The notes beneath the pieces are model-generated. The model did not search any database. It was given only the letters and a program-made list of their open reading frames with translations, and had not been told where the DNA came from. This document shows, one piece after another, positions 61,298 through 62,101 of a stretch of DNA of 64,000 bases. Where the stretch lies: assembly GCF_013004695.1 (NCBI RefSeq), contig NZ_JABEMG010000006.1, positions 1 to 64,000 on the forward strand. Direction: 5' to 3'. The translations under genes and the position numbers were made by a program. Source of the DNA: Promicromonospora citrea (GTDB lineage: Bacteria; Actinomycetota; Actinomycetes; Actinomycetales; Cellulomonadaceae). Each line of letters opens with the position of its first letter. Within the stretch, counting starts at the first letter, position 1.

Positions 61298-61304
61298 GCT
61301 TGAG

Positions 61305-62072
61305 ATGAGTGCCGAAGCCCGCCAAAGAGACGGTTCAGTGGGGCGGATATACGGGATCCGGATTGAAGGATCGCGAGAGTACCGCTACATCGGGCTGACC
61401 ACGAAGACCGTACGGGCTCGTTTCCAGAAGCATTTGCTGGTCGCGCGCTCTGGCAGGAAGACGCCGTTCTACGACTGGCTTCGGAAGCACGCACAGGAGG
61501 CGGAGGCCCTGGTCTTGGCCGACCACTTCCTCACGCTTTCGGAGCTGGGTCGTGCAGAGATCGACTACATCCGCTGGTTCAGGTCTGCGGGCCACGGCTT
61601 GCTCAACGTGGCCGAGGGTGGCTTGGGTCCGACGGGCGTGGTGTGGACGGAGGAGCAGCGGGAGGCCGCAAGACTCAGGTCGACAGGGCGCAAGGGCGTC
61701 AGCCGACCTGGCGCGCTGCATCCTTTCTTTGGGGGGCACCACACTGAGGAGCAGCGCGCCAAGTGGTCTGCGGAGCGGAAGGGAACGTTTGCTGGGGCTG
61801 CCAACCCGAACTATGGAAAGTTCGGTAAGGACCACCCGTCGTTCGGGCACCAGTGGTCGGTGGACTCTCGGAAGGCGCTCTCGGAGATGCGGAAGGGCGA
61901 GAAGAACCCCAACTACGGGAAGACCGCGAGTGCGGAGACGCGAGCCAACATGTCCGCCGTGCGAAAAGGTGTTCCCAGGCCGTCGAGCGCGCGGAGCGCG
62001 CACACTCGCTATCACACGAACACAGGACGTACGAGTCCCACATGCAGGTTCTGCATGGTGGACGACGAGTAA
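61305..62072 (+). CDS. Free-standing GIY-YIG homing endonuclease with NUMOD3-like repeats
   Basis: 255 residues. N-terminal GIY-YIG nuclease domain at about 13-105: RIYGI (Tyr16), YRYIGLT (Tyr28), then RARFQKH with Arg39 and His43 spaced as Arg27/His31 of I-TevI, Glu85 in [10 protein letters not shown] and Asn101 in LLNVAEGG. The rest is a DNA-binding tail of four NUMOD3-like units (T/S-x-E-x-R ... RKG) separated by NPNYGK segments, ending in CRFC. Lies between the intact nrdE stop (7 bp) and nrdF start (29 bp). GC is lower than its neighbours (35 of 60 at 61381-61440) and it uses codons such as ATA, AGA, CGA, TTG and a TAA stop, signs of transfer. Weak ribosome site; probably read through coupling with nrdE. 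ATG 61305 chosen over an upstream frame inside nrdE. Confidence 0.9.
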
Positions 62073-62101
62073 CGGGCCGGCAACTAGGAAAAGGAACTGG
62101 C

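Follow-up and report, generated by a model that had tools for sequence, protein, structure and literature searches.

How does a gene for a putative DNA-cutting enzyme come to lie between the two subunit genes of a bacterial class Ib ribonucleotide reductase (RNR)? The question is posed by the window, the whole 64,000-nucleotide stretch of Promicromonospora citrea DNA analysed here, in which an 804-bp insert fills exactly the space from the nrdE stop codon to the nrdF start codon. To our knowledge, almost all that has been worked out about free-standing homing endonucleases comes from phages. Comparison of the locus with its relatives leads us to read the gene, with a probability of roughly 0.87, as an intronless, free-standing homing endonuclease gene that resides in the bacterial chromosome and is aimed at the 3' end of nrdE.

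The operon and its insert

On the plus strand the genes run nrdH-nrdI-nrdE-endonuclease-nrdF (Table 1). The endonuclease ORF begins with an ATG 8 bp past the nrdE stop and ends 29 bp ahead of the nrdF ATG, with AGGAAAAGGAA in between; its translation is probably coupled to nrdE termination. As the first-pass annotation had claimed, a complete 255-residue GIY-YIG/NUMOD3 protein fills the gap, and both reductase genes are intact, with full-length Pfam family matches. That the ORF belongs to a group I intron or an intein, as its likeness to the group I intron endonuclease model TIGR01453 might suggest (43.5 bits, under the cut-off of 56.05), is a reading we regard as out: the insert lies between two complete genes, and an Rfam search of 57500-63900 gave zero matches up to E=1. 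The claim of lower GC and atypical codons survives in one part. Third-position GC is 0.78 in the endonuclease gene against 0.97 in nrdE and nrdF, whereas its overall GC of 63.7% equals that of nrdE (64.2%) and nrdF (63.5%), all three under the window's 72.6%.

The single PF02867 match in the genome is this nrdE, which therefore looks essential; profile searches of the genome found neither a second PF02867 protein nor NrdJ above cut-off. For the NrdR control named by the first-pass annotation there is one box-like site, at 58338-58353, with one mismatch to the consensus and 0.37 such sites expected by chance. It should be noted separately that intergenic DNA at 63112-63206 and 26591-26660 carries tandem and inverted 16-bp units (GAGGTAGTCACNNGGC). 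Across the genome their pair pattern was counted 84 times, 43 in forward and 41 in reverse orientation, against 0 for the backward control, and the units are a dispersed REP-like repeat family.

Table 1. Coordinates of the nrd operon, the insert and its parts in the window
Feature	Position	Strand	Evidence
nrdH, glutaredoxin-like (operon context)	58438..58680	+	PF00462 54.9 bits
nrdI flavodoxin (operon context)	58716..59150	+	PF07972 155.7 bits
nrdE, class Ib RNR large subunit, intact, start codon uncertain	59117..61297	+	PF02867 531.7 bits, PF08343, PF00317
nrdE 3' tail, probable recognition/cleavage zone, candidate co-conversion tract	61237..61297	+	changepoint, inferred
Whole insert, nrdE stop to nrdF start	61298..62101	+	sequence; junction 49-90 bp in 12/12 other congeners
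GIY-YIG/NUMOD3 homing endonuclease gene (putative), 255 aa	61305..62072	+	ORF, Pfam, PHROG, TIGR01453
GIY-YIG catalytic domain, residues 11-108	61335..61628	+	alignment of 26 rows, structure model
NUMOD3 repeat region, DNA-binding, residues about 115-222	61647..61970	+	PF07460, 2 stretches above limit
C-terminal conserved H/C stretch, possibly zinc-binding	61998..62054	+	alignment
Short leader with AGGAAAAGGAA, likely nrdF ribosome-binding site, adjoining insert	62073..62101	+	sequence, inferred
nrdF, class Ib RNR small subunit, intact	62102..63082	+	PF00268 315.6 bits

The encoded protein

Of the two Pfam profiles proposed by the first-pass annotation, NUMOD3 (PF07460) matches the protein at 57 bits (cut-off 20.4), as expected of a NUMOD-type DNA-binding region, and GIY-YIG (PF01541) scores 19.4 bits, under its cut-off of 22.6, so that the protein is missing from a whole-genome PF01541 search at E<=0.001. 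PHROG 314, 'homing endonuclease', matches at E=5.2e-15, and no HNH family is among the Pfam and NCBIfam matches. According to passages of PMC1564403, the GIY-YIG domain is marked by a central Arg and a C-terminal Glu. Both are present, as R39 and E85, which together with H43 and N101 are invariant across 26 aligned rows; H237, C247 and C250 of the C-terminal stretch are likewise invariant. The modelled N-terminal domain superposes on the catalytic domain of I-TevI (Z 11.4, 94 residues, rmsd 2.6), the model of the whole protein being weak (pTM 0.43). Foldseek returned zero matches at E<=0.001, its best being I-TevI at 0.011, and a PDB sequence search with the protein gave zero matches.

Distribution and position behind nrdE

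The gene is present in one of 13 genomes of the genus and in 15 of 221 of the family. In genomes drawn from the order it was found in 13 of 396 (12 strong matches and one weak partial match), and in those drawn from the class in 5 of 394, four of which had already been counted in the order or are the window's own genome and the fifth being a decayed copy in G770, truncated and split over two frames. The family of G770, probably Mycobacteriaceae since its nrdE-endonuclease stretch aligns with that of Mycolicibacterium L032 (83% over 1864 columns), holds the gene in 14 of 351 genomes; in three genomes (G1052, G1097, G1196) the match is broken into several pieces, perhaps through rearrangement. 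When genome contigs were scanned, 17 loci came up, 16 of them at 59-71% identity, in Isoptericola, Arthrobacter, Sanguibacter, Cellulomonas, Glutamicibacter and Mycolicibacterium. The presence of an endonuclease in a cellular RNR operon, which the first-pass annotation considered unusual, thus recurs across actinomycetes.

In every fetched locus of at least about 50% identity (tblastn; actinomycete chromosomes), nrdE ends directly upstream. These are the window, L003, L019-L034, L036-L049, L052-L063, L067 and the remnant L065/L066, plus 14 of 14 genomes of G770's family. The downstream neighbour is less constant: L032 has the endonuclease behind nrdE and 6 kb downstream without nrdF, and nrdF lies within the fetched stretch in just 6 of the 14 genomes of G770's family. 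For this reason we take the nrdE 3' end, and not the nrdE-nrdF junction that had been proposed, as the apparent target. Many relatives' endonuclease genes overlap nrdF by 4 nt, and that of L023 has no usual start codon at the expected place. More distant relatives are mixed: L072 (25%), Gordonia phage GMA2 (partial) and L064 (partial) had no adjoining nrdE in our search, nor had L004 and L035, which match over 61 residues of the repeat alone. A plasmid search gave eight records, each under 60% identity. Two loci from a viral collection, L003 and L067, resemble by nrdE identity pieces of bacterial chromosome with the same nrdE-endonuclease-nrdF order; the G/C runs of L003 contain several frameshifts, which are probably errors of sequencing.

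Patchy occupancy

The first-pass annotation had named vertical possession of the gene by all relatives, with matched GC and codon use, as evidence against homing, and had predicted an endonuclease-free junction of 0-30 bp in sister strains. All 12 other genomes of the genus have an empty junction, as predicted; at 49-90 bp it is longer than that. We fetched 100 further junctions of the family, picked from listed places to hold all occupied and many empty genomes, with the partial occupied row L171 left out. To place the 14 occupied rows among 100 on an nrdE tree built without the last 150 nt takes 13 changes. With shuffled labels the mean is 13.3, and 262 of 500 shuffles give a number as low. 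Occupancy therefore carries no phylogenetic signal at family depth.

Genus g6 allows a closer look. Its 11 empty genomes have homologous junctions in 55 of 55 pairs, while junction homology is found in 0 of 22 occupied-empty pairs, and the two occupied genomes match each other. As these two, L114 and L123, sit in different parts of the g6 tree, at least two gains are the simplest account. For 11 of the 14 occupied rows, the junction of the nearest empty relative is matched in more distant empty rows, in some over only 14-30 nt; for L136, L169 and L170 no match was found among those rows. The window is sister to its 12 congeners and the junction matches among them span just 15-21 nt, so its own history could be a gain, such as the recent arrival suggested by the first-pass annotation, or a loss.

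Replacement of the nrdE tail

The last 46 nt of nrdE differ by 22.5% between occupied genomes and their nearest empty relatives (n=14), against 10.2% in matched empty pairs (78 rows; p=2e-6, the rows being partly dependent as some nearest relatives are common to several). In the stretch from -92 to -46 the values are 5.1% versus 3.9% (p=0.27), and in the nrdE body 5.0% versus 4.6%. In empty pairs too the tail diverges about twice as far as the gene body (10.2% versus 4.6%), which counts against homing. It should be noted that the nearest-empty comparison was adopted after a negative result: a cross-genus test of occupied-occupied versus occupied-empty identity showed no tail signal in the averages of genus pairs, and this test mixes two tail types, VENC-type and TSVE-type.

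Individual sister pairs are more telling. L114 and L115 have identical nrdE from -165 to -44, then differ at 14 of 43 nt, and the native junction is gone; on the right, nrdF nt 4, 5, 6 and 12 differ, then none until past nt 150. By alignment this is the clearest pair for a gain with co-conversion. L136 and L137 show zero nrdE differences from -200 to -38, then 9 in 37, with the first nrdF difference at nt 71. The tract would thus run from about 45 nt inside nrdE through the nrdF start, a shape that fits a cut near its left end and, on the right, resection as far as the first homologous sequence. Changepoints before the nrdE end fall at 43 nt in L114 (support 43-48, LLR 31.5), 37 in L136 (37-45, 14.8), 51 in L123 (25-81, 11.2), 51 in L100 (49-75, 10.1), 61 in the window (51-85, 9.8), 51 in L147 (43-100, 8.5), 46 in L133 (40-430, 8.4), 61 in L126 (51-72, 7.5) and 33 in L110 (33-168, 5.0). 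In four of 13 occupied pairs (L146, L148, L169, L170) the best changepoint lies elsewhere than the tail, and two of 64 empty-empty pairs exceed LLR 8 with strong tail changepoints (19.5 and 17.3). Against its nearest empty relative, L083, the window differs at 16 of 61 tail nt versus 35 of 539 upstream. Tail divergence of this size is also reached by 8% of matched empty pairs; for the window itself the sign of co-conversion is suggestive only.

Occupied tails are of two types, with GAA-AAY before a Cys codon or with ACG-TCC-GT. The window's tail encodes a CVSC motif near the C-terminus. An Asn codon precedes this motif in 10 of 11 occupied versus 1 of 47 empty rows of g4, g6 and g22 (Fisher 2e-9; genera picked post hoc) and in 0 of 3 occupied rows of g1 and g9. 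GAA-AAY occurs in 8 of 14 occupied rows and 0 of 86 empty rows; the 26 empty rows of the whole set that have Asn codons use GAGAAC (22) or GACAAC (4).

The two empty-empty pairs with strong tail changepoints are L156 (G082) against L165 and L084 (G012) against L076, in which the nrdE tail changes abruptly 43 and 51 nt before the stop. These tails might be old homing scars or plain recombination.

We suppose that an empty allele, on entering or meeting a donor, is cut by the enzyme within its nrdE 3' end, where LEGTxVxxCVSCML is encoded. The break would then be resected and repaired with the occupied allele as template, so that tail, gene and nrdF leader are copied. Since the insertion leaves the tail intact, the donor's resistance would probably come from the altered tail sequence.

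Phage copies

Arthrobacter phage Talia1610 has the order nrdH-nrdI-nrdE-GIY-YIG (gene 111)-nrdF. With viral contigs L068, L069, L070 and L071, there are four or five putative phage copies behind nrdE, as L069 and L070 agree in their nrdE identity and could represent a single kind of phage; of 14 phage records besides Talia1610, GMA2 alone was inspected for gene position. Phages Racecar and Mimi, with an nrdE protein 99.4% identical to that of Talia1610, have a 90-bp junction without endonuclease, and the 84-bp empty junction of the outgroup phage Atuin looks homologous to theirs. Talia1610 and Racecar nrdE differ at 40 of 2139 positions, 31 of them in the last 130 nt and none from -650 to -150 (changepoint 130 nt, support 130-137). 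Judged by these alignments, Talia1610 against Racecar/Mimi looks like a gain with co-conversion of the L114/L115 kind; nrdF differs at 86 positions, which blurs the right end of the tract.

It is conceivable, if rather unlikely, that a single homing element passes back and forth between bacterial chromosomes and large phages, using the same nrdE site in both, with phages that carry a class Ib RNR operon as vectors, and that the host copy cuts incoming phage nrdE. If so, a selfish gene would double as a weapon against phages bringing their own ribonucleotide reductase.

Weighing the explanations

As far as the aligned genomes tell, the family is shown to stand directly behind nrdE with scattered presence and absence in close relatives, and several sister pairs link its presence to replacement of the nrdE 3' tail and of the intergenic region. 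Could ordinary processes account for this? The endonuclease tree mostly follows genera (Cellulomonas and Arthrobacter each in 98% of bootstrap trees), as is also expected under vertical descent. That an old, vertically inherited gene was lost many times without any homing is nevertheless very improbable. Repeated loss would have to restore the same native junction that the empty g6 congeners have in common, and 14 occupied rows need 13 changes. The trees also disagree: by endonuclease, and not by nrdE protein, L060 (from another family) groups within Cellulomonas and L059 within the window's family. AU tests gave p 0.010 for Cellulomonas without L060, 0.001 for the window's family as one clade and 0.043 for Mycolicibacterium within Micrococcaceae, all groups named after viewing the tree; phage positions in it are unsafe, as long branches meet.

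The raised tail divergence and two strong tail changepoints of empty pairs would suit a general recombination hotspot at the nrdE tail, the gene moving as a passenger by homologous recombination with its nuclease irrelevant. We hold this improbable: tails of occupied genomes diverge twice as much as those of matched empties, the gene keeps its fixed place behind nrdE in chromosomes and phages alike, and the catalytic residues are invariant. Moreover, dN/dS of 0.06-0.18 across 12 endonuclease pairs, the window's being near saturation, shows by this estimate a family under purifying selection. Such selection, and the tight nrdF overlap in many relatives, could equally be cited for a domesticated gene serving host RNR expression or genome defence. 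Its absence from 206 of 221 family genomes with otherwise alike nrdE and nrdF, and the broken copy persisting in G770, make that hard to credit. A free-standing homing gene, as first annotated, remains the best reading: it lies outside any intron or intein between intact ORFs, the 12 congeners are empty at one fixed site, and nrdE tails appear co-converted in several sister pairs, clearly so in L114/L115, L136/L137 and Talia1610/Racecar.

Comparison with known systems

Sister species and isolated phages here offer ready donor and recipient alleles at an essential-looking nrdE, and intronless homing in cellular chromosomes, the cut site, self-protection and phage-host traffic become directly testable. 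Homing genes often lie next to phage RNR genes, according to parts of PMC3653736 and PMC10448857. T4 MobE lies between nrdA and nrdB, and Seg proteins home without introns, with marker exclusion and co-conversion, as described in sections of PMC2988022. From that same description, T4 SegA-G are similar to the window's family in GIY-YIG catalytic fold, free-standing state and association with a site; the present family differs in residing in bacterial chromosomes, in its NUMOD3 repeats and in its place behind nrdE. MobE (PMC2988022, in part) shares the location between large- and small-subunit RNR genes, with a start overlapping or near the upstream stop, but is an HNH enzyme that cuts nrdB of a class Ia RNR in a phage genome, unlike the window's GIY-YIG/NUMOD3 gene. 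Gene 111 of Talia1610 has the same operon order and site, but only 31% identity, and its repeat region is incomplete. Group I intron endonucleases in nrdE of Bacillus and cyanobacteria are also mobile and use chromosomal nrdE (PMC3984707, in part), yet lie inside introns, which the window's gene does not; that review sees scant evidence for movement even of bacterial introns from one bacterial species to another. Our literature search covered titles and abstracts under open licence, with subscription journals outside its scope, and found no description of the chromosomal family there. As far as that search reaches, what is new is the chromosomal residence and breadth of a family that, by analogy, is taken to work like Seg and MobE.
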